A stretch of DNA of 39,130 nt from a bacterium. GTDB taxonomy: Bacteria > Latescibacterota > Latescibacteria > Latescibacterales > Latescibacteraceae. The notes under the pieces were generated by a model that had not been told where the DNA came from, did no database searches, and saw only the letters and a program-made list of their open reading frames with translations. The translations under genes were made by a program, and so were the position numbers. Shown piece by piece: positions 1,312 to 38,118 of this stretch (positions are counted from its first letter, which is position 1; every line of letters begins with the position of its first letter). The stretch lies in contig JAJFUH010000159.1 of assembly GCA_021372535.1 (NCBI GenBank), positions 1-39,130 of the forward strand, read 5' to 3'.

Positions 1312-1983
1312 CTACTTTTTTCTCCTGTCGGTGATTACTTTCCCGTCCCTGAGCTTTATTGTCCTGTGGGCGGCTTTGCCCACTATTTCATCATGGGTGA
1401 CAAGCAGCACGGCGCCGCCTGTCCGGGTGAATTCTTCGAATACGGAAAGGATGATTTCGGCGTTGTCGCTGTCGAGGTTGCCGGTGGGCTCATCGGCAAG
1501 CAGGAGCCGGGGCTTGTTGAGGAGCGCCCGCGCCATGGCGGTGCGCTGACGTTCCCCGGTGCTGAGCTCCGAAGGCACATGGTGGAGACGGCCGGTCATG
1601 TTGAGCCGTTCGAGCAGCCCGTGGGCACGGTTTTCCGCTTCCTTGTCACGCATCGCGACTGAAGGCACGAGCACGTTCTCCAGAACGTTCAGGTACGGTA
1701 CGAGATGAAACTGCTGAAAGACAAAGCCTATCTGGGATGCCCGGTACAGCGCCCGTTCATCGGACGGCAGCCGGTACATGTCGATGCCGTTGATTTCCAC
1801 CGTTCCCTCGTCGGGGACAAGGAGTCCTCCCGCGGTGAGCAGGAGGGTTGTTTTTCCGCATCCGCTCGCACCCTGGACTGCGACGAACTCACCCGGCCCG
1901 ACACGGAGCGAGACGGCTTCGAGGGCGACAACACTCCCCCGGCGGCCGTAGTAAATGGTGGTTACGGTGTCGATATCGAGCAT
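1312..1983 (-). CDS. ABC transporter ATP-binding protein (LolD/MacB type)
   Basis: 223 residues, the normal size for a stand-alone LolD/MacB-family ATPase. Visible motifs are Walker A GASGCGKTT (about residues 38-46), Q-loop FVFQQFHLVPYLNVLENV, Walker B LLLADEPTGNLD and H-loop LLVTHDE. The ABC signature reads LSTGERQR instead of LSGGQ; such degeneracy occurs in this family and the residues that matter most (S, G and the following Q/E-R) are partly kept. It energises the FtsX-type permease encoded immediately upstream (8 nt gap); systems of this type extract lipoproteins, export substrates, or act as mechanotransmitters across the envelope. Start ATG at 1983 with GAGGAA about 11 nt upstream. 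The substrate is unknown. Confidence 0.93.
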   Translation of the reverse strand: MLDIDTVTTIYYGRRGSVVALEAVSLRVGPGEFVAVQGASGCGKTTLLLTAGGLLVPDEGTVEINGIDMYRLPSDERALYRASQIGFVFQQFHLVPYLNVLENVLVPSVAMRDKEAENRAHGLLERLNMTGRLHHVPSELSTGERQRTAMARALLNKPRLLLADEPTGNLDSDNAEIILSVFEEFTRTGGAVLLVTHDEIVGKAAHRTIKLRDGKVITDRRKK

Positions 1984-1991
1984 GGCCGATT

Positions 1992-3272
1992 CTATTCCTC
2001 CCTCAGTATCGTTGCGGGGTCCTGACGGGCGGCAAGGAGCGCGGGAACCCAGCTCGCGGCGACAGTAAGAAACGGCGCCAGCACCAGAACGAGCAGGAGC
2101 AGCCGGGGATTGAAAAGCCTCTCGATATCAGCGGCTTTGGCAGCGACATCACCCGTGGCAATTCCGAGCGCATACCCGGCGGCATATCCGAGCAGCCCGC
2201 CGGTAAGGCCGATCAAAAAGGCTTTTATGAGAAATATTGAGAGAATCTGGCCCGATCTGAACCCGAGAGCCCGGAGAATCCCGATCTCGACCCTCCGCTC
2301 GCGCACGTTACCGAAGGCGAGCAGGCCGATCCATGCAGTGCACCCGAGCAGTATGAGCGGGATAAGCCACGAAGCGAACTCCTCGCGTTCGCCGCGCAGT
2401 TTCGCCCGGTAGAGACTTTCCGCCGCCAGCGCTGAATCCGCCGTTGCCTTTGCCCGGTCGCGGGCACGTGTCCGCGCAAGCGACTTGCTTTCGAATTCGA
2501 GAATCTGCGTTTCGGGGAGAATGCGGGCGACATCCTGGCGTATCGTTGCAAGATCGTTTCCGGGACAGAGGCATTTCAGCGCGAGTATACCGGTGATCCG
2601 GCCGGGACGGTTGAGCAGTTCCTGCGCCTCGGCGAGATCGATCCATGCGGTTATGTCATCCCTCGTTCCCCGTTCGGGATGGCATGCCCCGACCGTGAAC
2701 ACTCTGCCGAGCAGTTTGATACGGTCTCCGGGCCTGATCATCTGCGGTTTCCACAGGTCATACCCGAGCACTATGGACCCCGGGGGTACCGCATCGAGAA
2801 TGGGTGTCTGCGAGTCGAGATGCGAAGAAGGCATCTCGCCGCGCGTTCCGGCGAGAATGATCGAACGGTTTCCCTGCTCCGGCCACCGTATCTTCTGCTC
2901 GATGCTCGGCAGGATGTGCCGTATGGTCATGATATCCGCATCGGCAAGCCGCTTCACATATTCCTCGGGCATATCGGCGGAAGAAACGCCATCGGAGTAA
3001 AAATCGCCGAGCGCCTGTCCCCGGGGGAGCACAAGGAGATTGAAGCCCATGTCTTTTGTGATCTTACGGTAATCGTCCTCCATGCGCTTCATTTCCCCGT
3101 TCATCTCCGCTTCCTTTTTTGCGAGGATATTCCGGGTCTGGACATCATGCGCATCGAGGAGTGTCAGCTCTGCCACGAGCACCCCGACCGCTATCAGCAC
3201 GGACAGAACTCCGAGGATGAATCCGAGCTTACGGTGCCCGATTTCGCGGAATACAAGCTGGCGGATGGTCAT
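1992..3272 (-). CDS. ABC transporter permease, MacB/FtsX family
   Basis: 426 residues with the classical topology: one N-terminal membrane helix (about residues 17-40), a large periplasmic domain of about 260 residues with a coiled-coil-like charged stretch (about 50-75), then three C-terminal helices (about 305-325, 350-370 and 395-418). The C-terminal part carries the FtsX signature, FGNVRERRVEIGILRALGFR, followed by the terminal ALLAARQDPATILREE typical of MacB/LolC/LolE permeases. The ATG overlaps the stop of the upstream gene by four bases (ATGA), which indicates translational coupling. It pairs with the ATPase at 1312-1983. It is a mechanotransmission-type ABC permease; what it moves or signals to is not visible. 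Confidence 0.92.
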   Translation of the reverse strand: MTIRQLVFREIGHRKLGFILGVLSVLIAVGVLVAELTLLDAHDVQTRNILAKKEAEMNGEMKRMEDDYRKITKDMGFNLLVLPRGQALGDFYSDGVSSADMPEEYVKRLADADIMTIRHILPSIEQKIRWPEQGNRSIILAGTRGEMPSSHLDSQTPILDAVPPGSIVLGYDLWKPQMIRPGDRIKLLGRVFTVGACHPERGTRDDITAWIDLAEAQELLNRPGRITGILALKCLCPGNDLATIRQDVARILPETQILEFESKSLARTRARDRAKATADSALAAESLYRAKLRGEREEFASWLIPLILLGCTAWIGLLAFGNVRERRVEIGILRALGFRSGQILSIFLIKAFLIGLTGGLLGYAAGYALGIATGDVAAKAADIERLFNPRLLLLVLVLAPFLTVAASWVPALLAARQDPATILREE

Positions 3273-4570
3273 GGGAAATTCCTTTTATGAGGCCGTAACA
3301 CGGTCACGCTCAGGAGCACGGTTACGACGGCGATAAACCCGAAAACGATGAACAGGTTCCTGACCAGATGACCCGCCGATCCACCGAGCGAGGCTTCGGA
3401 CACCGGCGGCAGGGAAGCCCGCATTGTATCGGCCTCTGCCCCGTTCGGCGGTTCACCGCCTGATACAGCCGTGTGTTCGTCCGATGATCCGAAGGCTGCG
3501 GAAATGCTGTCGGCACGGGTGCTGTCCGGAATTGGTGCGGCGCCGGAGTTTTCACCGTTTCCCCGTTCCGCCTTTTTCACACTTGTTGCCTCACGGGCAA
3601 GCTCGGAAAGGCCGACAAGCGGCGGAAGCTCCAAATTCTGAACCAGACGGCCTTCGAGCCCTCCTTCCCAGTCGACCGGCATGAGAAGATCGACGCCGGG
3701 ATTCTGATCCTTGACCTGGCACGAGCACGGGCCGATGACAAACATGCACGATTCCATAATATTCTGCTTGTCGATACCTTTACCGACGAGAGCAAAAAGC
3801 ACCCTGCCCCTGCCGAACACCGGGAACGCCATGGGATAGGACGTGTAGTCGGTCAGGTCGGGCTCTGATTTCATGAGCATTTCAACGAGCATTGCCTCTT
3901 TCGGATCGCTCCGTGAGACCCGTATCATCGAAAATGCGATCCGCAGCTTCGGCCCTGTCTCGCGGATGGGTACGAATTCACCGGAGCCGAAATCGGCGGG
4001 GTCCGGCAGTTTGAGTGTACGCCCCATTTCGCCGAGCTGCGCTTCGAGCAGAGCCGAGGCGGTATTGTCCTTTTCACGGTCGCCGCTCTCGAGGAGCAGC
4101 CATACCGCCGATTCGCCGTCGAGAATTCTCCGGGCAATCTCTCTCCTCACCGGAGAATCGACGAGAACACGGGCATTCGCTTCGGTAAAACGTTCGACAC
4201 GGAGCGGAAGAAGCATCTGCGGATTGCCCGGATAAAAAATCGCCATGCAGGGCAGTTCGGGATTATCGAGACGTTCCCAGACACTCTTTTCCGGTTCATT
4301 CAACGCGGCATAGACATCGACGGTCCGAACGGAGAAATTCGAATAGGGAATCGCTTCCATCGAGGTGCGTTCGAGCCAGTTCACAAGTTCTCTATCGGAC
4401 GAGGACAATGCGCCGCGATGGAATACCATCACCGTATAGGTATCGGAGGGCCAGCGTTCGAGCCCATACCGGAATACCGGCACATTACAGGCCTCTGCCG
4501 GTGAAACGAAGAAAAAAACGTATACCAGAATCAGGTTGACGATTGCCGTTCCGACCGCTTTGTAAACCAT
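3269..4570 (-). CDS. Secreted, C-terminally membrane-anchored protein of unknown function, first gene of ABC operon
   Basis: 433 residues from the ATG at 4570, which has AGAGAAGGAA directly upstream; the frame is open 27 codons further but without comparable support. An N-terminal hydrophobic segment (about residues 6-24) ends before a Cys-containing motif ACNVPVFRYGLERW, which suggests export. The middle contains GPCSCQ and several alpha/beta stretches with faint thioredoxin-like character (inference only). A low-complexity Ser/Ala/Gly/Pro linker (about 340-400) leads to one C-terminal membrane helix (about 403-425) and a short basic tail. The product is therefore probably a periplasmic domain tethered by a C-terminal helix. 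It overlaps the permease start by ATGA, so it is surely co-expressed with the transporter. I do not recognise a named family; proteins opening with this CNVPVFR-like motif beside FtsX-type transporters seem to recur in Planctomycetes-like genomes, but that is recollection and not checked. Confidence 0.8.
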   Translation of the reverse strand: MVYKAVGTAIVNLILVYVFFFVSPAEACNVPVFRYGLERWPSDTYTVMVFHRGALSSSDRELVNWLERTSMEAIPYSNFSVRTVDVYAALNEPEKSVWERLDNPELPCMAIFYPGNPQMLLPLRVERFTEANARVLVDSPVRREIARRILDGESAVWLLLESGDREKDNTASALLEAQLGEMGRTLKLPDPADFGSGEFVPIRETGPKLRIAFSMIRVSRSDPKEAMLVEMLMKSEPDLTDYTSYPMAFPVFGRGRVLFALVGKGIDKQNIMESCMFVIGPCSCQVKDQNPGVDLLMPVDWEGGLEGRLVQNLELPPLVGLSELAREATSVKKAERGNGENSGAAPIPDSTRADSISAAFGSSDEHTAVSGGEPPNGAEADTMRASLPPVSEASLGGSAGHLVRNLFIVFGFIAVVTVLLSVTVLRPHKRNFP

Positions 4571-4750
4571 TTCCTTCTCTTCCTGCCAGAGACACCGCTG
4601 CCGGTTTCGGGGATACTCATATTCTACAACGAACACGGATATAATACTCATGTTTCCGGGAAAAATACACCTCTATTTCAACGCCTGGAAATCATTAAAG
4701 TTGCTGAGAGCTGTATTCCGGGTGCTATCCACAGCGGCCAACCGCATGAA

Positions 4751-7700
4751 CTATCCGTCTTTCCGGGAAGACCCGTCAATGTCGATGATCCGTGTTCCGG
4801 TAATATAATCCATTGTTTTATAGCGTGTTATTTTATTCAATTTCAGGGTTATTTCGCGGAGCCGTTTGACCTGCTCACCGATTACCCGCATAATCCCGGT
4901 GTCGGGTTTTTGGATGATTCCGGCGGTTATCATCTCGATGTAACCCGAAATAACCTGAAGCGGCTGATTCAATTCATGGCTTGCGGCGCCGGCCGTTTCG
5001 AGAACGCCGCGGAGCTTCTCCTGTTTGAGACGTTCTTCTTCGGCCCGTTTACGGTCGGTTACATCGATGCCGAGCTTGAGGACGCCCGGGGTCCCGTCGA
5101 TATCGGAAAACGGATACATGTATATCTGGAAAACACGTCTATCGGGAAGCATGCATTCACATGCCTCGGTTCCGCTTACTTCGAGGATTTTCTGAATCGA
5201 GCAGTCCGGGCATGGTTCTGTGTTTTCAGCAGTATGCCTCAAATACGAGCCGTCCTCGCACTCGCTTAAATCATCGAGAAAACGTTTGTTTGCATACGTG
5301 ATCGATTTATCGGGTGTCTGGAGTATAACAACCGCCGGAAGCCCGTCGAGCAGCGAAAAGAGCCGTTTCTGTTCAAGATGAAGGGCATCCGTGGTCTCCT
5401 TCAGCTCGCGTGTTCTGATCTGTACCTGCTCTTCGAGTACTCTCTGCTGTTTTTTCACATTCCGTACTCTCATCTGATGAAGTATCAGTACCGTGCCCGC
5501 CAGGGAAAAACCGGCGATAATTCTGAACCACTCTGCTTCCCAGAACGGAGGCACTATCCTGATTCTGATGGAGGAGCCCGTTTCATTCCAGACGCCGTCA
5601 TGGCTCGATCCCTTAACCCTGAACACGTACTTCCCGGGATTGAGATTGGTGTAGCTTGCATATCGCCGCGAGCCGGAATAAATCCAGTCTTGGTCGAATC
5701 CTTCCATCATGTAGGCATACTGATTTTTCCGGGGCGAGGAATAATCAAGAGCCGCAAACTCGAATGATATGAAGGTATCTTTATAGGAAAGATTGATTTC
5801 TGATACTTCCGAAACCGATTTATCAAGGGTGAGGTTACGGTCGAATTTCTTTATCGAGGTAATGACAACAGGGGGTACATAGAGGCTGTGTTCAAGAGCA
5901 TGGGGATTAAACCTGTTGAGTCCATCAACCCCGCCAAAATACATCTCTCCGCTTTTTGTCTTACAGCATGCTCCAGGGTAAAACCCGGCATTAAAGAGTC
6001 CATCCTGGTCGCTGTAGTTTGTTATTGATTCGTTTTTCCAGTCGAAGCAGGAAATCCCTCCGTTAGTGCTGATCCACAGGTTCCCGGCGTTATCCTCAAG
6101 CATTCCCGAGATGACATTGTTGATTAATCCGACTGTCGTGGTATATACGTAAAAGGTGTCATCGGCTCTGTTAAACCGATTCAGCCCATCCGCAGTTCCT
6201 ACCCAGAGCGTTCCCGACCTGTCCTCATGAAGCGTCGTGATCCTGTTGTTGCTCAGACTTCCCGGCTGCGCCGGATCGTACATGTACCGTTTGCATGTCC
6301 CCGATTCGGGATTGAAAAGGTTGAGACCCGAATTGGTGCCGAGCCACAGGTTCCCGGAACAGTCCTCGAGTATCGTTCTCACGATGTTATGGCTTAACGT
6401 GTTAGGGTCGGCGGGATCATGGCGGAAGTGAGTGAACGTACCACTTTTACTGTCGAATCTGTCGAGCCCTCCCCCCGTGCCGATCCAGATGATACCGCGG
6501 CTGTCCTCAATGATGTCCAGCACCCAGTTGTTACCAAGACTGCCGGGCTTATTGGGGTCGTGACGATACTGTCTGATCGCTCCCGTCCGGGGATTCATTC
6601 TGGCAATCCCATAACCCGTGCCAACCCAGATAAAGCCGTTTCCGTCCTCGCACACCGCGGTAACCCAGTCAGCCGGGATACTGTTCGTATCACCGGGCTT
6701 ATGCCTGTACCGTGTAAAACGTTCCGTGAGGGGATCGTACCTGTTGAGACCGCCACGGTCGGTGCCGATCCATATATATCCGTTTCTGTCCTCGTATACG
6801 GTCAGGACAAAATCGTCGCTCAGGCTGTTGGGATTTATATAATCGTGACGGTACAGGCGGAAACGGCTTTTCCCACGGTCGAACTTGTTTATTCCCCTGC
6901 TGGTTCCGAACCAGAGAATCTCCGACCAGTCTTCATAGAGCGTTTGAACCAGGTCGCTGCCCAGGGTACCGGAATTTCCGGGATCGTGACGGTAATGGGT
7001 GAAGCGTGTACGCTCAGGGTTCAGCGAATACACTCCATCATCCGTTGCCATCCACAGCACCTGAGATTTATCCTCATACAGTGTAAAAATGACCGAAGTG
7101 CTGGCATCTGTTCCGTGCGGTGAAGGAAGCGGGTATCGTTCGAACTTGTCCCGCGCCCGGTCGTAGCGGTTGATTGTGCCCTGGTTACCCACCCAGAGAA
7201 CACCTGACCGGTCTTCGACAATCGAGTAAACAAAATCACTCGAAATACTCCCGGAATCCCGTGGATCGTGGACATAATGTCTGAAAGTTTTATTGTGCGC
7301 ATCGAATCTGTCCAGACCGCCGCCGTTGGTTCCGATCCAGAGGATTCCCGATGAATCCTCATAAAGAGCATGGGTGAAATTTTCACTTATACTGTTCGGA
7401 TTTTCGGGATCATGAGAAAACAGGGTGAGTATTTCCCCGGACCCGTTACATTGAATGAGACCTTTATCTGTTCCTGCCCATATCGTTCCATCGCTGTCCT
7501 GAAATATGGGCATTGCATTGAGAATTTCAATCCCGCTCGAATCTCCGGGGCACACGGCACACTGGTAAAACATTTCGGTCGAGGGATCGTACCTGTTGAG
7601 ACCGCCGCCATACGTTCCGATCCATATAATGCCCGATCTGTCCTCATAGAGCCAGAGAATGAAATTATTCGACAGGGAGCGGGGATTATCTTTGTCGTGC

Positions 7701-7945
7701 CTGAATATGGTAAAGGTATACCCGTCATATTTGTTAAGCCCGTCCATGGTCCCGAACCACATGAATCCCTTTCTGTCCTGGATAATGCTGGTCACCATAC
7801 TCTGCGAAAGGCCGTCCTCAACGGTTATATGCTCGAACATCGCATATTCTCCCGACGCATGGAGAAGCGACGGGGCAAGCAGAATCAGAAAGAACGCGAG
7901 CACGGAAACAGTCCCGGCTGAGCATGACATAACAAAACGTTTCAT
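4751..7945 (-). CDS. Two-component-type sensor: double reg-propeller, Y_Y_Y, PAS and phosphoacceptor helix, no ATPase domain
   Basis: 1064 residues from ATG 7945 (CAGG about 8 nt upstream and a clean signal peptide, MKRFVMSC onward; ATG 7975 is an alternative). Fourteen two-component-regulator propeller repeats of the form G-x-[IL]-W-[IV]-G-T-x-x-G-[LI]-x-R-[FY] fill roughly residues 35-690, enough for two seven-bladed propellers. A Y_Y_Y domain (about 700-790) precedes one membrane helix (about 800-820), a coiled coil, a PAS domain with Cys pairs (PCPDC, EACEC) and a HisKA-like segment with ASHELNQPLQVISGY. The protein stops about 65 residues after that His, so the HATPase_c domain found in hybrid propeller kinases is absent. 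No adjacent open frame supplies it. It may act with a partner kinase or as a decoy/dimerisation module. The propeller class usually senses polysaccharide fragments in the periplasm (family knowledge). Confidence 0.9.
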   Translation of the reverse strand: MKRFVMSCSAGTVSVLAFFLILLAPSLLHASGEYAMFEHITVEDGLSQSMVTSIIQDRKGFMWFGTMDGLNKYDGYTFTIFRHDKDNPRSLSNNFILWLYEDRSGIIWIGTYGGGLNRYDPSTEMFYQCAVCPGDSSGIEILNAMPIFQDSDGTIWAGTDKGLIQCNGSGEILTLFSHDPENPNSISENFTHALYEDSSGILWIGTNGGGLDRFDAHNKTFRHYVHDPRDSGSISSDFVYSIVEDRSGVLWVGNQGTINRYDRARDKFERYPLPSPHGTDASTSVIFTLYEDKSQVLWMATDDGVYSLNPERTRFTHYRHDPGNSGTLGSDLVQTLYEDWSEILWFGTSRGINKFDRGKSRFRLYRHDYINPNSLSDDFVLTVYEDRNGYIWIGTDRGGLNRYDPLTERFTRYRHKPGDTNSIPADWVTAVCEDGNGFIWVGTGYGIARMNPRTGAIRQYRHDPNKPGSLGNNWVLDIIEDSRGIIWIGTGGGLDRFDSKSGTFTHFRHDPADPNTLSHNIVRTILEDCSGNLWLGTNSGLNLFNPESGTCKRYMYDPAQPGSLSNNRITTLHEDRSGTLWVGTADGLNRFNRADDTFYVYTTTVGLINNVISGMLEDNAGNLWISTNGGISCFDWKNESITNYSDQDGLFNAGFYPGACCKTKSGEMYFGGVDGLNRFNPHALEHSLYVPPVVITSIKKFDRNLTLDKSVSEVSEINLSYKDTFISFEFAALDYSSPRKNQYAYMMEGFDQDWIYSGSRRYASYTNLNPGKYVFRVKGSSHDGVWNETGSSIRIRIVPPFWEAEWFRIIAGFSLAGTVLILHQMRVRNVKKQQRVLEEQVQIRTRELKETTDALHLEQKRLFSLLDGLPAVVILQTPDKSITYANKRFLDDLSECEDGSYLRHTAENTEPCPDCSIQKILEVSGTEACECMLPDRRVFQIYMYPFSDIDGTPGVLKLGIDVTDRKRAEEERLKQEKLRGVLETAGAASHELNQPLQVISGYIEMITAGIIQKPDTGIMRVIGEQVKRLREITLKLNKITRYKTMDYITGTRIIDIDGSSRKDG

Positions 7946-8174
7946 ACGTTTACCTGCGGCACGATAACAATTCATCAATAATCAATATATTACACAACAT
8001 ATCATTATTGATTTCGGATGATATTGTTCCGGTGAATAAACAGTGGCATCGGAGACGTCATGCCGAACTTGTTTCGGCATCTATTCCAAATTATTATCAT
8101 TATTTAACCACGGGAGCAATAATAGCCATCACTTTATACCACGGAATGTGATTTTCTTTCTGCTCCTCGTACAA
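7946..8174. other. Intergenic region holding hairpin repeat family A
   Basis: About 230 bases between the receptor gene stop and the sensor start, both on the minus strand. It contains a family A inverted-repeat element (separate entry) and AT-rich DNA upstream of the sensor gene. No open frame with a ribosome binding site is seen. Confidence 0.6.
8023..8120. repeat. Hairpin repeat family A, copy 1 (MITE-like)
   Basis: A 98-bp element bounded by imperfect terminal inverted repeats (ATTGTTCCGG on the left, CGGGAGCAAT on the right). In its centre lies the hairpin ATGCCGAActtgTTTCGGCAT. Copy 2 at 35700-35800 matches closely over the whole length, including the central GTCATGCCGAAC, TTTCGGCATCTATTCCAAAT and ATCATTATTTA blocks. 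No coding capacity. Confidence 0.75.
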
Positions 8175-10868
8175 TTACTTCAATACCTGGCGTATTCCGA
8201 CCGTGAACCTTCTGCCGTAATCGGGGTACCCCACTACGGTCGAAAACCGTTTATCTGTAAGATTAAACGCCTCAATATACACTCTTGTGCGGAATTTTGT
8301 GCCGAATGTTCTCCCGGCCGTTATGTTCAATGTGGTGAAATCCCCGAGGGGCTGGGGAACCGGCGAGCTTGCCGCAAAACGGTCGTTTTCGTACGACGAG
8401 AGCGACTTCAGGTATACGTTGCAGTCGTAATCCGCCCGTGAAAGCATGATTCCTCCACCGGTGATGACGCGGGGAAATTCGTGGTCGCGCTTCATTGTGC
8501 CGTCAATTCTCGCGGTCGCCCGCATGACGGTGACGTTCATGAAGATACGGGCGGTATCGCAGAGACGCACCGAACGGGCTTCCATCTCGATGCCGGAGTG
8601 GTTACGGTCACGGTTATCATAGAGTTCCATGATGCGGCCGTTGACCTCTTTCGTTTTACCGCTCAGAACGATGGCGTTCTTCTGGTTGACGAAGAATCCC
8701 GTGACAGTCGCATCACCCGCTCCTTCGATACGGGCTTTCACACCCGCATCGACCATGATCCGGCGCTCGTTTACCGGCTCTTCAAGGCCGATGTCGAGCG
8801 TGCCGGGCCGGGGCTTGATATATCCCCCGGTGACATTGGCGCTGAGCGAAAGGGACGGCGTCAGAGCATACGATGCCCCCGCATTGGCATTATAGATCGG
8901 CTTCTCCCATGTATCCTTGATCTGGGGAACCTTGCCGAATCCCTGCGCACTGCCCTCGATGCTGAAGGCGCCGTATTCATCCATGTAGGTCCTGAGCATC
9001 TTGATACCGGCATCGACATCGAGCCTGCCGAACCGGTGCTCGTCCACGACCGCCAGGGAATATGTCGAAAGATCGCACCGTCTCCCGGCGTAAAAGCGCT
9101 TGCCATAGGGCGCCACCCACCGGTTGTAAAAGCCGCCTATCCGCAGAGTGTTCCGATCGGTGAGCGCAAGGGACTGCACGAGATTCATGCTCCACTCGAA
9201 ATCCCACTCGTGCGTGCTCGTGACAGTCGTGTCGGTCTGGCTTATGTAGGTGTTGTCACGGTTGGAATAGGTTGAGTGGAATTCGGTGGAAGTCCTCTGA
9301 TTCCAGATGTAGAGCGCCTTCGCCTGGACAAATGTCCCCTGAAGGGGATCGTACCGTTCATTTGTGTTCTGAAGCTTCTGTGTCGCCGGCGGTAAAGCCT
9401 GTACGAGCACCCGTTTCCCATACATATGGAACAGTGCGGTGCGGATGGAAAGCTTTTTAAAGGGCTGCCACCGGATATTCCCGAAGAAACTGGCCGTGTT
9501 CTCGTTTCCAAGCCTGCCCGCGGGCCCGTCGGTATGCGGAGCACCCAGGCCGAGAGCATATGAGCCGTTCCTGAATATCCCGCCGTGGGAGATGTGAAAC
9601 CGGTAGGAGTCGAAGCTTCCATAGGCAAGCTCCCATGATGTTTCGGGCTTGGTGTAATCGCGCGGGACAATATTGACAACGCCTCCCAGGCCGGAGATGC
9701 CGGTGAGCATGGCGGCGCTCGAACGCATGACTTCGATGCGCTCGATGTCCGAAGACGTGAAAAACGACGGCAGCTCGTGGAACTCACGGTACAGCGCGCC
9801 GTCCACTGCATAGTCGGGATAGGGGTACGTCTGGCCGCGGACGGAGAAGAAGTCCTTTACTTTCCGGCCCCGTGTTTCGACCCATGCTCCCGGAACATAT
9901 TCCATAGCCTCGATGACGGTGCTGGCTCCCTGTTTTTCGATGTCTTCGCGGTCAACGACGCTCACGGCGGACTGAAGGCCCGGCGATTCGATGAGCGGAT
10001 CATGGATAAGATCACGGACACCGGTTCCCGTCACCTCGATGGGTTCGAGAACGTAGACGGATTCCCTGTCTTTACGCGACGGCGGTGTTTCAGCGACCGC
10101 AGTGTCCGTGGCCTTCGTTCCCCGACCCTCCTTGGTGAATTCGAGCCAGATGCCGTACCTGACACCCTCGCTGTCCGGCGGTCTGGGCATGACGATCCTG
10201 TATTCCCGTATCCCGAGTGTTTTCATGATCGTTTCGAGCTCGTTCGCTGTTTCCGTGAGATCGTATTCCGGTTCGGAGCCCTGGTTGCGCTGACGGTCGC
10301 GGATGGCGCGGGCAGCTTCCACGGGCAGGTTCCCGGAAAATCCCCTGCCGATGAACGCCCTGCCGCCGGGCTTGAGCACACGGCAGATTTCGGAAAACGC
10401 CCGGGGCTTGTCTTTCCAGAGGTGGAAGGACCCCCGCGAGACGACGATATCGACCGATGCATCCCTGAGAGGAATGCTGTGGGCATCGGCGAGGAGCGTC
10501 CCGATACGGTACCCGACGCCGGCATCATCGGCAATCGTCCGCGTAAAAGGGAAAAAGAACGGATTGATATCGGCATTGATCCAGTACATGTGCCCGGTTC
10601 GTTTTGCGAGCTCGACCGCAAGGTTGCCGGGGCCTCCGCCGATGTCGACGCCGGTCCCGGAAAAGTCGGCGAGATTGAATCTCGAAACGATGTGTTCCGC
10701 CAGCGGCCCGTAAAGGGGAGCGAAAACGGTTGTCGCCGTGCGGGTGTACCGTTCAGCCTGTTCCTTCTGTGCTTTCTCCGAACCGGTGATTACAGCATCT
10801 TCTCCCATGCAATAGTGTGTGTGGAGCGCTGCAAGAAAAACCATGAAAAAAAGCGTGTTCCGTTTCAT
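8175..10868 (-). CDS. Fusion: exported SAM-methyltransferase domain + TonB-dependent outer-membrane receptor
   Basis: 897 residues in one uninterrupted frame. Start ATG 10868 has AAAGGA 7 nt upstream. Residues 1-22 look like a signal peptide. Residues about 45-245 form a class I SAM-dependent methyltransferase domain: motif I VDIGGGPGNLAVELA (74-88), acidic loop NADINP (98-103), motif near DAHSIPL (128-134), DIVVSRGSFHLW (140-151) and post-motif LKPGGRAFIG (165-174). A Pro/Ser linker (about 248-268) leads to VLEPIEVTGTGV (possible TonB box, about 273-284), a plug domain (about 293-405, with VDREDIEKQGASTVIEAM and RIEVMRSSAAMLTG) and a beta-barrel of about 490 residues ending GRRFTVGIRQVLK. 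N-terminal extensions of such receptors face the periplasm, where SAM is not known to be supplied, so the methyltransferase part may bind another ligand or act as a signalling/partner domain (inference). It is transcribed after the Nramp-like gene (53-nt gap), so metal or metal-chelate uptake is the natural guess; no substrate can be named. Confidence 0.9.
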   Translation of the reverse strand: MKRNTLFFMVFLAALHTHYCMGEDAVITGSEKAQKEQAERYTRTATTVFAPLYGPLAEHIVSRFNLADFSGTGVDIGGGPGNLAVELAKRTGHMYWINADINPFFFPFTRTIADDAGVGYRIGTLLADAHSIPLRDASVDIVVSRGSFHLWKDKPRAFSEICRVLKPGGRAFIGRGFSGNLPVEAARAIRDRQRNQGSEPEYDLTETANELETIMKTLGIREYRIVMPRPPDSEGVRYGIWLEFTKEGRGTKATDTAVAETPPSRKDRESVYVLEPIEVTGTGVRDLIHDPLIESPGLQSAVSVVDREDIEKQGASTVIEAMEYVPGAWVETRGRKVKDFFSVRGQTYPYPDYAVDGALYREFHELPSFFTSSDIERIEVMRSSAAMLTGISGLGGVVNIVPRDYTKPETSWELAYGSFDSYRFHISHGGIFRNGSYALGLGAPHTDGPAGRLGNENTASFFGNIRWQPFKKLSIRTALFHMYGKRVLVQALPPATQKLQNTNERYDPLQGTFVQAKALYIWNQRTSTEFHSTYSNRDNTYISQTDTTVTSTHEWDFEWSMNLVQSLALTDRNTLRIGGFYNRWVAPYGKRFYAGRRCDLSTYSLAVVDEHRFGRLDVDAGIKMLRTYMDEYGAFSIEGSAQGFGKVPQIKDTWEKPIYNANAGASYALTPSLSLSANVTGGYIKPRPGTLDIGLEEPVNERRIMVDAGVKARIEGAGDATVTGFFVNQKNAIVLSGKTKEVNGRIMELYDNRDRNHSGIEMEARSVRLCDTARIFMNVTVMRATARIDGTMKRDHEFPRVITGGGIMLSRADYDCNVYLKSLSSYENDRFAASSPVPQPLGDFTTLNITAGRTFGTKFRTRVYIEAFNLTDKRFSTVVGYPDYGRRFTVGIRQVLK

Positions 10869-10921
10869 TCAACAATCCTTTACTGGTGCTGTTTTCTGAT
10901 ACTGCCGCTCAGTTGTCCGAA

Positions 10922-12193
10922 TCACCGGAACAGCGGCGCAAATATATCGATGAGGGCCACAATTCCCATATATGTGGTAATAAATGCGTAGACAAGGGTC
11001 GCGGACATCCCGATGTTGAGCCAGAGCCCGGCGGTGTGCTCGCCCATGATTTTTTTGTTATTGATCATCACCATGATCGCGATGGTGGTCACCGGCATGA
11101 TCGTTGCCTGAAAGGCGCTCGCGGCTATCATGACAAACACGGGCCTCCCGCCGAACACCGGCACCGTGAGCCCCGCCAGAAAGGCGACAGCGCCGAGGAT
11201 GCGGAACATGGTGCTCTGTATGTTGCGCTCTGTGCCGCGGTAATCGCAGATGAGCCATGGCAGGATGAGAGCGATGGGGAATACGGTGCTCACCGCCGCG
11301 CCGATGATACCGACCACGAAAATACTGATCGCAAACCGTCCCGCCACAGGTTCGAGAATCCTGACCATATCGACGGCGCGCTCGACCGGAATTCCCATGC
11401 GGTACAGGGTTCCCGCGGCGCATGCCATGATTGCGGCGGAAACGAAGAGCATCATACCCGCGCTCACGAGAGCGTCGATTTTTTCATGGTGGAGCTCCTT
11501 GATCGTCCAGCCCTTTTCGGCGACAACGATACTCCGCATGACAAACACGATTGCCCCGCATGTCGTTCCGGTCATCCCCGCGATGATGAGAAACGCGTTC
11601 GGTTCATCGGGAATGCTCGGAACGAGACCTCTGATGAGCTCTCCCGGTTTGGGTATGACCATGATCATGCTGAGCAGAAAACTCAGTCCCATCAAAATGA
11701 CCAGCGTAATGAGGAATTTTTCGAATTTCGAATATTTCCCTGTCCACAGGAGATAATAACAGCCGGAAAGGATAACAACGGCTGAGATTATCATGTTCAA
11801 ACCTTCGCCGCCGAACAGAATCTTTGTCCACTCCCTGATAAGATCGGTCAGCACCCCCATGACTCCGGCAATACCGAGAAACTCGCCGAGCGAAAGGGTA
11901 AAAATCGAATAAATCGCGATCCATTTCCCGAACGGCAGATATTTCCGGTATCCCATGAGGGAGGTATCGCCGCTCACGAGCGTGAACTGCCCGTACGCGA
12001 CAAGCATGACATATGTAAAAACACAGGACAGTACGAGCACCCAGAACATACTCATACCATAACGGCTCCCTGCTGAAGCCATGTTGGTAATGCTGCCTGT
12101 ACCGATGTTATAGCCCATCATGAACAGTCCCGGCCCGACAGCGAGGAGCATCAGGCCGATCTTACTGAAAATTCCTGTGCGCTTTTTATCCAA
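10922..12193 (-). CDS. Nramp-fold (SLC11-like) transporter with non-canonical metal-site motifs
   Basis: 423 residues, about 11 hydrophobic segments, normal size for the Nramp family. Starts with TTG at 12193, backed by GAAAGGAG six bases upstream. TM1 begins with the family-typical GPG (residues 20-22), but the metal-binding DPGN motif is replaced by GTGS (about 31-34, within NIGTGSITNMASAGSRYG), and the TM6 M-P-H motif is missing: the matching stretch reads GMTGTTCGAIVFVMRS. The canonical Mn/Fe ligands (Asp, Asn, Met) are thus absent, and the substrate is unlikely to be bound as in MntH. Similar GTGS/GAGD-type Nramp relatives exist in other bacteria (family knowledge, not searched). It is the first gene of an operon with the methyltransferase-receptor fusion, behind a strong promoter at 12253-12281, implying a joint role in uptake across both membranes. 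Confidence 0.88.
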   Translation of the reverse strand: MDKKRTGIFSKIGLMLLAVGPGLFMMGYNIGTGSITNMASAGSRYGMSMFWVLVLSCVFTYVMLVAYGQFTLVSGDTSLMGYRKYLPFGKWIAIYSIFTLSLGEFLGIAGVMGVLTDLIREWTKILFGGEGLNMIISAVVILSGCYYLLWTGKYSKFEKFLITLVILMGLSFLLSMIMVIPKPGELIRGLVPSIPDEPNAFLIIAGMTGTTCGAIVFVMRSIVVAEKGWTIKELHHEKIDALVSAGMMLFVSAAIMACAAGTLYRMGIPVERAVDMVRILEPVAGRFAISIFVVGIIGAAVSTVFPIALILPWLICDYRGTERNIQSTMFRILGAVAFLAGLTVPVFGGRPVFVMIAASAFQATIMPVTTIAIMVMINNKKIMGEHTAGLWLNIGMSATLVYAFITTYMGIVALIDIFAPLFR

Positions 12194-14818: not shown

Positions 14819-16300
14819 CTATGTGTTCTTCATGCTCTTTTCCGCGCGGGCGACGATACGGTCGATTTCTCTTATTCGATGATCATCGAGCACCGGTTCG
14901 AGCAGCCCTGCCATGATCTCACGCGCCTGTTCCGCCGCCAGACGTTCCATTCCCCTGACTTGCCGATGGCTGTAAGTCTCCCAGTTCATACACTCGGTCA
15001 GGTCGCTGAGCCAGAATTCCTTACGGAAGTGGTCGAGGGTGTGCGGATCGCCGATGAAATTCCCTTCGGGGCCGATATGTTCTATGACATCGAGCGCCAG
15101 CGTGTCTTCACTGACCTCGAAGCCCGCCATCATGCGCCTCACCGAGCGCGCAAGCTCGGCATCGAGCACAAGCTGCACCGGGCTGAACGTCATACCGTAT
15201 TCAAGCTGCCCCACGGTGCCGATGCCGGATGCCCCGCAGAGCAGCGGGAACATCGTGGACGCCATCTTTTCCATGCCCGACTGGAATCCCGGCTCGTTCG
15301 CGTTGGTCTTGCCGCCGTGCACACCGCTCGTGATGCCGTAAAAGTCCCTGAGAAGCTGTATTCGTGCGCCGAGCAGCGCCATACGGTCGGGTCCGGCATA
15401 GGGGAACAGAAGGCTTTTCATGTCGCAGTAGCCGCCGGTGAAATCGAGGCTGAGGACGGCGTTCTCATCGACCGCATACCCGAGCACAAGCCCGGCCAGC
15501 GTCTCGGCGAATCCCAGAGCCAGCGTGCCCGCACCGGTCGCCGGGGCTGTCGTTCCCGCGCACGGCATGGTGTCGATCGACTGCGGCAGCCCGCACCGGA
15601 TATATTCTATAAAGATCGCCGTCATGTTCGTATCGAGCGCGAGAGGACTCCTGCACTCGCCATACCCGACAAGGCAGGGTTCACCGATGAGCCGCTCACG
15701 GCTTCCGCGGACAACGATCGCGATCTCTTCGATCCAGCGGACATCGTCCACGGTGAATGCCTCGATCCCGCCGAGCTTGGATGTGTACTTGACGAGCTCT
15801 GCGGCCATCCTGACCGGCCGGAGCTCCGGCGGCGTTCCGCTGTCTATGCAAGGGAGACCGGAATACGTTATGTCGTCGAGGGCGTTCACGAGTTTGAAAC
15901 TGTCGTGGACATCGTCCATGGTCGGAGCCCGTCGTTTTCCATCGAGGCCGTAAATGAGCGTGCAGAATCCCCCGGCGCTCGTGGTGAAATCGTGGTGGAG
16001 CTCTTCGTCCCGCCGATAGTAGCTGACCTCGGAATAGCGCACCGCCTGTTTGAGTCCCCTGCGGTCGGGGCGGAGATAATCGCTCCGCAGCTTCCGGACG
16101 GACTGCTCGACGATGTCCCTGGGGAAAAACACCCGGGAGCCCTCATCATCGACACTGCAGCCGAATCGCCGGAGGATATCACGGGCCTCGTCATGGTAGA
16201 TTTTCATTCCGACTTGTTCGAGTATCCGGAGGGAAGCATCGTGCACCATCTCCATCTCACCGTCCGTGAGAACTTTTATCCGTCCGAAAAGCCCGGCCAT
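14819..16300 (-). CDS. MttB-family (trimethylamine methyltransferase-like) corrinoid methyltransferase, non-pyrrolysine
   Basis: 493 residues, the full family length, with start ATG 16300 and AAAGGAG 7 nt upstream. Opening LTDGEMEMVHDASLRILEQVGMKI and later GCSVDDEGSRVFFP, TYSGLPCID, SPLALDTN, GAGTLALGFAETLAG, GGYCDMKSLLFPYAGPDR and EPGFQSGMEKMASTMFPLLCGASGIGTVGQLEYG are characteristic of the trimethylamine:corrinoid methyltransferase (MttB) superfamily. The frame has no internal TAG, so it belongs to the non-pyrrolysine branch, whose characterised members demethylate quaternary amines such as glycine betaine, proline betaine or carnitine and pass the methyl group to a corrinoid protein (family knowledge). 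No corrinoid protein, MttC or reactivase gene is adjacent, so the methyl acceptor must be encoded elsewhere. It appears to be a single-gene unit. The exact substrate cannot be told from sequence. Confidence 0.9.
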   Translation of the reverse strand: MAGLFGRIKVLTDGEMEMVHDASLRILEQVGMKIYHDEARDILRRFGCSVDDEGSRVFFPRDIVEQSVRKLRSDYLRPDRRGLKQAVRYSEVSYYRRDEELHHDFTTSAGGFCTLIYGLDGKRRAPTMDDVHDSFKLVNALDDITYSGLPCIDSGTPPELRPVRMAAELVKYTSKLGGIEAFTVDDVRWIEEIAIVVRGSRERLIGEPCLVGYGECRSPLALDTNMTAIFIEYIRCGLPQSIDTMPCAGTTAPATGAGTLALGFAETLAGLVLGYAVDENAVLSLDFTGGYCDMKSLLFPYAGPDRMALLGARIQLLRDFYGITSGVHGGKTNANEPGFQSGMEKMASTMFPLLCGASGIGTVGQLEYGMTFSPVQLVLDAELARSVRRMMAGFEVSEDTLALDVIEHIGPEGNFIGDPHTLDHFRKEFWLSDLTECMNWETYSHRQVRGMERLAAEQAREIMAGLLEPVLDDHRIREIDRIVARAEKSMKNT

Positions 16301-21313: not shown

Positions 21314-21961
21314 TTACTTGCGATTCATGAATGTCCATTTTTTCTGGAGTATTTTCGCAGCCCGGTGCAGGCGGCTTTTAACCGTTCCCGCCGGACATCC
21401 CGTTGCATCCGCTATTTCCTGATCGTTAAGATCGTGATAATATTTCAAGACAATCACCTCCCTCATCTTCGCCGGCAAACCGGCCACCATCTTCTTCACC
21501 TCTTCTGCCTTGAGTATCCGCTCGGCATCGAGCGTTTGGTCACACACCAGATTTTCAACTTCATCGATGGGTACGATGACATACCGTTTGTCCTTGCGCA
21601 TGGTGTCCCTGCACTGGTTCACCGCAATCTGGAAGAGCCATGTCGAAAGCTTCGATTCTCCCCGGAAATGTTTAATACTCCGTATCACCTTTATCCACGT
21701 TTCCTGGAAAATATCCTCCGCCAGCTCGTAGTTGTTGATCATACGCACGATGAAAGCGAACAGGGGACGTTTATACAGTTCCACAAGCTCATCGATTGCC
21801 CGGGAATCGCCTTCCCGCAGCCTCAGGATCAGTGCCTGCTCGTTCAGCCGGTCTTCAGAGGACACCGTTGTTGTTTCCTTTCCGGAGCACTGTTCCCTTC
21901 GATCTTCATCAATGCAGGGTCTGTCCTCAATTACCCCGGTTCCGCCCATGTAAACCTGCAT
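21314..21961 (-). CDS. ECF-type RNA polymerase sigma factor
   Basis: 215 residues, ATG 21961 with GAGGAG 8 nt upstream. Region 2 is seen as ELVELYKRPLFAFIVRMI, NYELAEDIFQETWIKVIRSI and ESKLSTWLFQIAVNQCRD (about residues 60-140); region 4 as LPAKMREVIVLKYYHDLNDQEIAD and GCPAGTVKSRLHRAAKIL (about 165-210). There is no region 3, as expected for the extracytoplasmic-function group. The first 35 residues are unusually Cys/Glu-rich and not part of either domain. It heads a run of four minus-strand genes with a small membrane protein and two PspC proteins. A possible ECF-type promoter lies upstream at 22049-22074, which would mean autoregulation. Confidence 0.93.
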   Translation of the reverse strand: MQVYMGGTGVIEDRPCIDEDRREQCSGKETTTVSSEDRLNEQALILRLREGDSRAIDELVELYKRPLFAFIVRMINNYELAEDIFQETWIKVIRSIKHFRGESKLSTWLFQIAVNQCRDTMRKDKRYVIVPIDEVENLVCDQTLDAERILKAEEVKKMVAGLPAKMREVIVLKYYHDLNDQEIADATGCPAGTVKSRLHRAAKILQKKWTFMNRK

Positions 21962-35889: not shown

Positions 35890-38118
35890 CTAAAACCGGA
35901 AGCCGATATTCACATAGGTCAGCAATCCACGGCTGCCGCTGCCCTTCATGACCGTATAATCGATGGGGCCGATCGGGCTCAGCATGCCCGCTGTCAAACC
36001 GACGCCGTTGTTCAAACCCTCGTTTGAGAAGATATCCTCAAACGAAAGAACGGCTTTCCCCCTGTTTCCCCTGAGAATGAGAAACATGTCCTTCCGGAAT
36101 TCATACTGAATCCCCCCTTCGGAAACATACGCGGTCGACCCGGTTTTTTCCATGAATTTCAACCCGGCAAACGGAAAAAAGGTTGTCCGGGCCGGGTGAA
36201 ATCCTCCGATATAAAAGTAGTAATCCGGCGGCAAATCGTCCTTCGAGGACATGCCACCATAGAAACTGCCGAACAGCGAAATACGGTTGTGTACGGGCAG
36301 AACCTCCGTAAACATGAGGGCATAACGCTTGAACGGCTTCATGTCCGGAAAATCGTCGATTTTCAGCAGATCGGTGACCGAGAGAGCCTCGCCGTAGAAT
36401 TGAAAACCGTTCCGGGGAAATACCGACCGGTCGAGCGTATCGAGGGTGATGTATCCCATAAAATTCAACTGCCCGAAATGCATATCTTCCCAGTCCTCGG
36501 GAACGATTTTGCTCTCGATCTCCGAATAGTGGTACTGAACACCGGCGCCGAGCGAAAAAGTATTTGCAAAAATAGTCTGTAAAAGAATGTTCGTTTCAAA
36601 CAGCGAATAATCGAGGCTCGACTCGAGTTTGCCGTTCGGCTTGTATGTGTAGACTTCAAACTTGTCATACGATGTCTGTATTGACAGCCCGACTCCCGGC
36701 CTCCAGTTCGTGGAGACAAAATACGAGCCGCTGTACCCGGGATTCTGGCTCAGCCGGGCATTGAACATGAGTTTTGAACCCTGTCCCAGTACATTGCGGA
36801 ATGTCGTATTGAGCAGGAGCGCCGATTTCATATTGGAATCGTAATGAAACCCGAATTTGAAAAAACTCTCATCCTGTTCGACAACCCGTATGATGAGCCG
36901 GTATCCCTCCCGAAACGGTTCGAGCTTGTAGGTGATCCGCTCGAAAAACTGGCTGCCGTAAGCGCTTTCTATCGCCCGTTCGAGCCCGGTCGGTGTCATG
37001 TGCGACGGCACCTCGATATTGAGCTTTCCCATGAGCAGGTAGCTGGAGACATTTCGGAGACCCTCAAACCTGAGATCGGTCACATATATATCACGCGGAA
37101 CAGCAGGCGGAGCGGACTGTTTCTGCTCTCGGGGATACTGCTTCAGGGAATCGGCAAGAGCCTTGAGGCGGGGCAGTTGTTCACGGGCGGCGCGCTTACC
37201 CCGAACGATCAGCGAATCGATGGCTCCGAAGCTTGAAACGCCGTATTCGCCGACATCGGGCATGATCAGTATGTCGCAGAGCCGATGCTGCTCTTCTGTT
37301 GCGGCCGCTCCCCTGAAACGCATCACCTGCTCAAGAACCTTTACAAGCGAGTCGATGTCTTCCTTCCCATACAGGGGGGCGCCGACATCGACTCCGATCA
37401 CGATATCCGCGCCGAGCGCCCTCACATCGGAGGCAGGCAGGTTCCGGACAAGATATCCGTCGGCAAGGAGACGGCCGTTCAGTTCCACCGGCGCGAAAAT
37501 CGTCGGAAGGGACATGCTTGCCCGCAGGGCATCGGGCAGAAAACCTCTGTCGAGGACAACAGCTTCCCCGGTCTCGATATCGGTGGCAACACAGGCAAAA
37601 GGGATGGGCAGTTTTCTGAAATCATCGACAGCATGAACCGGAAGCGTCAACCGCGAAAGCACCGCCGACAGTTTCTGACCCGCTGTCAATCCGGCAGGCA
37701 GCGAGATTTTACCGTGACGGATGGGAAAGGCGCCCACATACCGTTCCAGCTCATCCTTTTCCTCGATCGACACGTTCCTTCTCGATATCGTATCGCCGAG
37801 TATCTCGCCCCAGTTCTGCTCGCGGGCGATTTTCTCAATATCGGCTGCCTTATAACCGATCGCATACAGTGCGCCGACAGCCGCACCCATGCTCGTGCCC
37901 GAAATGCAGTCAACCTCGATGCCTGCCTCTTCCAGAACCTCGATCACTCCGATCTGGGCAAGACCCTTTGCGCCGCCGCCGCTCAGAACGAGCCCGATTT
38001 TCGGTCGCGCCGCCGTACCGGTATCGGAAGCGTGCGAGCCCCCGGAAAATGCAAGGGCGCATATACAAAGCACAACCGCCAAGCCTGCTGTTTTTATCAT
38101 CCCGCCTGAAAACCTCAT
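35890..38118 (-). CDS. Patatin-like phospholipase with POTRA and outer-membrane barrel (PlpD-like, type Vd)
   Basis: 742 residues; ATG 38118 has a weak ribosome site, and ATG 38100 is an alternative. After a signal peptide (about 1-30), a patatin domain runs from about 40 to 320: oxyanion loop GGGAKG (47-52), nucleophile Ser76 in GTSMG (74-78) and the catalytic Asp220 in DGYLVRNLP. A single POTRA-like unit follows (about 350-425: IYVTDLRFEGLRNVSSYLLMG and FERITYKLEPFREGYRLIIRV), then a 16-strand-type BamA/Omp85 barrel (about 430-742) ending in Phe (YVNIGFRF), as outer-membrane proteins do. This is the PlpD/type Vd secretion layout, in which the lipase is carried across or displayed at the outer membrane. 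Residues needed for lipase action are all present. Context does not reveal its role. Confidence 0.93.
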   Translation of the reverse strand: MRFSGGMIKTAGLAVVLCICALAFSGGSHASDTGTAARPKIGLVLSGGGAKGLAQIGVIEVLEEAGIEVDCISGTSMGAAVGALYAIGYKAADIEKIAREQNWGEILGDTISRRNVSIEEKDELERYVGAFPIRHGKISLPAGLTAGQKLSAVLSRLTLPVHAVDDFRKLPIPFACVATDIETGEAVVLDRGFLPDALRASMSLPTIFAPVELNGRLLADGYLVRNLPASDVRALGADIVIGVDVGAPLYGKEDIDSLVKVLEQVMRFRGAAATEEQHRLCDILIMPDVGEYGVSSFGAIDSLIVRGKRAAREQLPRLKALADSLKQYPREQKQSAPPAVPRDIYVTDLRFEGLRNVSSYLLMGKLNIEVPSHMTPTGLERAIESAYGSQFFERITYKLEPFREGYRLIIRVVEQDESFFKFGFHYDSNMKSALLLNTTFRNVLGQGSKLMFNARLSQNPGYSGSYFVSTNWRPGVGLSIQTSYDKFEVYTYKPNGKLESSLDYSLFETNILLQTIFANTFSLGAGVQYHYSEIESKIVPEDWEDMHFGQLNFMGYITLDTLDRSVFPRNGFQFYGEALSVTDLLKIDDFPDMKPFKRYALMFTEVLPVHNRISLFGSFYGGMSSKDDLPPDYYFYIGGFHPARTTFFPFAGLKFMEKTGSTAYVSEGGIQYEFRKDMFLILRGNRGKAVLSFEDIFSNEGLNNGVGLTAGMLSPIGPIDYTVMKGSGSRGLLTYVNIGFRF

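Follow-up and report, generated by a model that had tools for sequence, protein, structure and literature searches.

We have identified, in a bacterium of the family Latescibacteraceae, a single gene that joins a signal peptide and a class I methyltransferase (MTase) domain to a TonB-dependent receptor. What is new here is that this MTase domain sits in a strongly supported clade of twelve proteins, all of them with export signals. SAM chemistry is regarded as cytoplasmic, and the surprise exceeds the fusion itself, because in other phyla the whole MTase clade is exported without an attached receptor. The reading that fits best is that of a periplasmic, SAM-competent domain placed where other TonB-dependent receptors carry an STN domain and acting on or sensing an imported ligand, with catalysis, the SAM source and the ligand all being inferred.

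Architecture of the fused gene

The gene lies in a window of 39,130 nucleotides (the whole stretch of DNA that was analysed). A sequence-only reading of this window had reported an uninterrupted 897-codon frame without giving its strand; the frame is borne out as a single open frame on the minus strand, with its ATG at 10868, and the plus strand has several stops across the same interval. The choice of start codon is backed by the AAGGA upstream of it and by the N-terminal hydrophobic segment (TLFFMVFLAAL, Kyte-Doolittle mean 2.62). The features of the gene are as follows.

8175..10868, minus strand: fused gene (897 aa) encoding signal peptide, class I MTase, TonB-box-like segment, plug and barrel (Pfam, TIGR01783, recurrence)
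10876..10880, minus strand: Shine-Dalgarno-like AAGGA, 7 nt before the ATG, read from the sequence
10803..10868, minus strand: putative Sec signal peptide, residues 1-22, without twin arginine (hydropathy; counterpart in G001)
10125..10778, minus strand: 3dlc-like class I MTase domain, residues 31-248 (Pfam, AF2, Foldseek)
10626..10646, minus strand: SAM motif I, DIGGGPG, residues 75-81 (D75, G77, G79 and G81 invariant in the exported clade)
10026..10046, minus strand: TonB-box-like heptapeptide EPIEVTG, residues 275-281, between MTase and plug (pattern only)
9678..9974, minus strand: TonB-dependent receptor plug, residues 299-397 (PF07715, E=9.6e-18, far above cut-off)
8178..9677, minus strand: beta-barrel, residues 398-897 (TIGR01783 partial; PF00593 in the G001 orthologue; low-confidence strand-rich model)

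The Pfam match to Methyltransf_11 covers residues 74-173 (E=1.2e-17, far above cut-off), and the NCBIfam model TIGR01783 spans residues 300-611. The barrel of this protein has no Pfam match in its own sequence, and in the full-length fold prediction the MTase domain is good and the barrel is poor, with strands that cannot be counted, because the alignment is shallow. We nevertheless regard the receptor part as complete because the Pfam barrel model PF00593 matches the orthologue in G001 (residues 497-867, E=9.8e-13).

The source genome (G000) has a single copy of the fusion, which also occurs in two others, G001 and G002, among the 64 genomes of the phylum that were searched. The G001 protein (JAFGMP010000167.1, Candidatus Latescibacterota isolate Zod_Metabat.481) is 894 aa long, comes from the same genus and is about 64-65% identical; loci L007 and L026 are one and the same G001 locus and were counted once. 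The G002 protein, from another genus of the same family, is 56% identical and has a complete MTase-plug junction, although its frame leaves the 3.2 kb contig inside the barrel. The architecture and its conservation are observed directly, and the earlier proposal of an exported protein composed of signal peptide, MTase with DIGGGPG, plug and barrel is backed by three independent genomes. No second start or internal signal peptide is visible between MTase and plug in the three fusion linkers. EPIEVTG aligns with EPLEVRG (G001), EPISVKA (G002) and EPAEVIG (in a related receptor of G027), which share an EP-hydrophobic-x-V pattern and are recognised by that pattern only.

The MTase domain retains the residues of a SAM-type pocket

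By sequence, the best solved relative of the MTase domain is PDB 3dlc (E 8e-29), which is MMP1179 of Methanococcus maripaludis, solved with SAM in the pocket (PMC5289526). Structure prediction, which had been proposed as a check on the sequence-only reading, supports this assignment: the AF2 model of the domain (pLDDT 94.3, pTM 0.91) is a confident Rossmann-like class I fold, and its best Foldseek match in the PDB is again 3dlc (E 7.8e-20, TM 0.79 and 0.82).

Both the subfamily and the retention of its motifs are plain in the alignments. Across the twelve rows of the exported clade 44 positions are invariant, including D75, G77, G79, G81, D100, S144, R145, G146, S147, W151, G174 and G176, a set that is mostly common to SAM-bound 3dlc; D100 is the acidic residue after strand 2, and S-R-G-S (S144-S147) and W151 are the 3dlc-subfamily motifs after strand 4. 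Six residues (W96, R175, S178, N180, A186 and Y238) never vary within the exported clade and are absent from all eight outside relatives, and after strand 5 the clade has IGRGFSxN where cytosolic relatives usually have IGGGFG. This conservation suggests that the cofactor pocket has been kept together with a conserved, clade-specific substrate side, although residue conservation does not show activity; a distinct substrate side is suggested because W96, R175, S178, N180 and Y238 are fixed within the clade and missing outside it.

A clade of 3dlc-like methyltransferases with predicted export signals

The domain was searched for in 386 genomes, followed by a profile search of the phyla with matches, other phyla being only sampled. 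Free relatives were found in G118, in eight genomes of the 14-genome phylum to which G344 and G207 belong, and, in a third phylum, in G242 and G402. Maximum-likelihood analysis places the three fusions, the G118 protein and the eight in a single long-stemmed group (support 100/100); G242/G402 and 3dlc fall outside this 12-member group. The branching order inside the group is weakly supported, and whether the fusion is ancestral is therefore weakly supported as well.

Export to the periplasm, and binding of a SAM-type ligand, are strong inferences; the former rests on signal peptides recognised by hydropathy and on the consideration that an outer-membrane barrel must pass the inner membrane. 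The N-terminal 11-residue hydropathy is 2.0-3.3 in all twelve clade members versus 1.1-1.9 in cytosolic relatives, and with predicted signal peptides in twelve of twelve the clade apparently departs from the cytoplasmic location that is customary for the 3dlc subfamily, though not a strict criterion for it. From these signal peptides, the nine non-fused members, which belong to two other phyla, would be free periplasmic proteins or a lipoprotein. Nearly all of the free relatives start with a hydrophobic export signal, with a lipobox in some (G388, G242), although for the G402a protein, whose called start is too far upstream, the signal was read by eye; the relatives in G174, G084 and G027 have no such signal. 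Tat export with bound SAM was considered and rejected, since the signal peptides have no twin arginine.

In G207 the free exported MTase gene is divergent to a gene of a different TonB receptor family. The exported MTase of G118 (L043 196-1062) has a short C-terminal tail weakly like the G001 receptor linker, followed by a stop; 13 of 1000 shuffles were as good, and a fusion-type receptor was not found in the G118 genome. The G118 protein could perhaps be a lost fusion, but the likeness of the tail is weak.

Proposed modification or sensing of an imported ligand

We favor a model, with a probability of roughly 0.4, in which the exported 3dlc-like domain tethered to the receptor modifies an imported ligand with SAM or a SAM-like nucleoside. 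The receptor, powered by TonB-ExbBD, would import the ligand; the tethered domain, with its complete SAM pocket, would receive it in the periplasm; and methyl transfer would then proceed from SAM, or from a SAM-like nucleoside entering from outside. Eight ExbD matches above cut-off are present in the source genome (only ExbD was searched for, not TonB or ExbB). The inference is weak for catalysis, for what ligand is imported and for where SAM comes from. The supply of SAM is the main difficulty. We know of no periplasmic SAM source, and a search of a literature library gave nothing relevant on exported or periplasmic SAM methyltransferases or on such a source. Sec exports unfolded chains, so SAM cannot travel along with the exported domain. 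With no known extracytoplasmic supply of SAM, the export of such an MTase clade is puzzling.

Binding of a SAM-type cofactor and action on an imported ligand are most likely, but only by a small margin over a sensor or binding role without catalysis. The sequence-only reading had listed methylation, sensing and binding without choosing among them. A non-catalytic domain would have as its ligand the imported chelate, or SAM, SAH or some other nucleoside, and would gate access to TonB or signal occupancy as an STN domain does. Such a role would account for the placement of the domain at the STN position, before the TonB-box-like segment, it would be compatible with SAM having no known periplasmic source, and it has parallels in the degenerate MTase domains of neighbouring exported proteins. 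However, the full set of catalytic motifs is invariant, other members of the clade are free-standing and would have no receptor to act on, and we recognised no FecR-type partner beside the fusion, nor any adjacent FecI/FecR pair; the nearest ECF sigma gene (21314-21961) is 10 kb off, and its neighbour has no Pfam match.

More tentatively than for the tethered domain alone, we propose that the exported clade carries out periplasmic chemistry dependent on SAM or an alternative donor, with the fused enzyme methylating an incoming molecule, which would imply an extracytoplasmic pool of SAM or a SAM analogue. A conserved exported clade whose SAM pocket is untouched, present in at least three phyla and joined to a receptor in one of them, provides a testable case of methyl transfer, or of SAM/SAH sensing, beyond the inner membrane.

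Gene neighborhood

The immediate neighbors of the fusion are an Nramp-family gene and a Reg_prop sensor kinase gene, and downstream of it the kinase gene is accompanied by genes for an exported Cys membrane-anchored protein, an FtsX/MacB-like permease and an ABC ATPase. The neighboring features are as follows.

10922..12193, minus strand: Nramp-family transporter without DPGN and MPH motifs, 53 nt upstream of the fusion
14819..16300, minus strand: MttB-superfamily corrinoid methyltransferase gene, a homologue of which lies directly before Nramp and fusion in G001
1312..4651, minus strand: ABC ATPase, FtsX/MacB-like permease and an exported, Cys-rich protein anchored in the membrane; comparable genes lie near exported MTases in G118, G388, G390 and G393

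The Nramp-family gene and the fusion are likely to form an operon. In G001 an MttB homologue comes first, followed by Nramp and then the fusion, at spacings of 47 and 238 nt, and in G002 a PQQ/malectin protein gene lies just upstream of the fusion. The absence of the DPGN and MPH motifs speaks against metal uptake via a classical Nramp and leaves a classical Mn/Fe role of this transporter without support; its substrate is probably not a classical divalent metal.

This arrangement raises the possibility that the domain, together with the Nramp-like and MttB-like products, handles a metal chelate or corrinoid as its chaperone. The MttB-Nramp-fusion order in G001 and the short gap upstream of the fusion lend this some weight, as does the finding that cytosolic relatives of the domain adjoin MOT1-type molybdate and CobW/SBP/ABC genes. 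We consider this role unlikely, since the missing metal motifs of the Nramp-family protein count against it, the loci of other phyla have no Nramp/MttB neighborhood, and the receptor matches only generic siderophore, B12 and FhuA-type plugs.

Several other observations concern the surrounding genes. The Reg_prop/Y_Y_Y sensor kinase at 4751-7978 has a HisKA match near its end and no HATPase in frame, and is possibly truncated. Exported membrane-anchored Cys proteins of the CNVPVFRYALERW and CRYNVRDVGFVDL types occur in the window (3269-4651) and at L060 8040-9320, L062 1440-2681 and L043 7699-8919; they have no Pfam match, and are associated with both exported MTases and ABC transporters of the FtsX type. 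In G118 exported Cys proteins, permease, ATPase and a large PQQ-propeller protein adjoin the exported MTase, and G390, G393 and G388 have some of these genes beside theirs. In three of nine genomes, a member of one Cys-protein subfamily, which has about one full-length copy per genome, lies no more than about 8 kb from the MTase, a proximity above chance expectation. The window also encodes a second enzyme-barrel fusion, of a known kind, in which a patatin phospholipase is fused to an Omp85-type barrel (35890-38118; type Vd-like).

Constraint on the fusion

Between G000 and G001 the MTase is 64.5% and the receptor 65.1% identical, with dN of 0.27 for the MTase and 0.29 for the barrel (dS is saturated), and by this codon-level comparison the two parts are under equal constraint. 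The signal peptide is only 26% identical and, though strongly diverged, is still a signal peptide in G001. G027, in another family of the phylum, has a related receptor (46% identity) with its own signal peptide and without the MTase domain, and a separate cytosolic MTase of the 3dlc subfamily that adjoins a MOT1-type molybdate transporter gene. The receptor part had no match at E 1e-25 in the 385 other genomes, which is uninformative alone, and a plasmid search gave only generic MTases.

That the domain is an evolutionary passenger, accidentally fused and merely tolerated, is improbable: the fusion is confined to one bacterial family and a homologous receptor manages without the MTase in G027, but the MTase is as conserved as the receptor, and its pocket residues are invariant over three species and the 12-member clade. 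An assembly or annotation artefact can be dismissed, because although the fusion-bearing genomes are fragmented drafts that look like metagenome-type assemblies (G001 alone has a record that identifies it as a MAG), independent continuous frames with a common junction occur in three species at 56-64% identity, a result under which neither a false join nor homologues always encoded by separate genes, the two outcomes that would have refuted the sequence-only reading, is upheld.

Comparison with known systems

The closest structural counterpart, MMP1179, has the motifs DIGxGPG, VSRGS, W and G-G-F in common with the domain of the fusion, and its function is likewise unknown, but it has no export signal in the aligned chain, is unfused, and has IGGGFG where the fusion has IGRGFS. 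The small-molecule C-methyltransferases CouO, NovO and those of Coq5/UbiE type are also SAM-dependent and have a class I fold with a two-helix cap, although these are cytosolic or mitochondrial biosynthetic enzymes with only distant similarity to the fusion's domain.

Exported PQQ-propeller proteins (contig C234 of the source genome; G118, G388, G390, G393) are similar in having an extracytoplasmic MTase fold and are linked to free exported MTases, but their MTase domain lies between two propellers, belongs to a different subfamily and often has a degenerate motif I. Loss of the motif I aspartate in G118, G390 and G393 indicates that extracytoplasmic MTase folds can be retained for purposes other than SAM catalysis. 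C234 (1-7200) encodes two tandem exported PQQ-MTase-PQQ proteins (L069 516-3647 and 3983-7153), the second with a lipobox and an intact DVGCGDG, and motif I is retained in the one whose sequence was read throughout; these proteins point to a wider class of exported MTase domains.

Among TonB-dependent receptors the nearest parallel is with FecA, FpvA and FoxA, whose STN domain is periplasmic and precedes the TonB box (PMC11658791). As in the fusion, an extra globular domain facing the periplasm lies between signal peptide and TonB box (in the fusion, the TonB-box-like heptapeptide) and is followed by plug and barrel; however, the STN domain has about 80 residues and the fusion a 220-residue MTase fold, with no match to STN in a Pfam scan. 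TonB-dependent receptors gain a new class of N-terminal domain.
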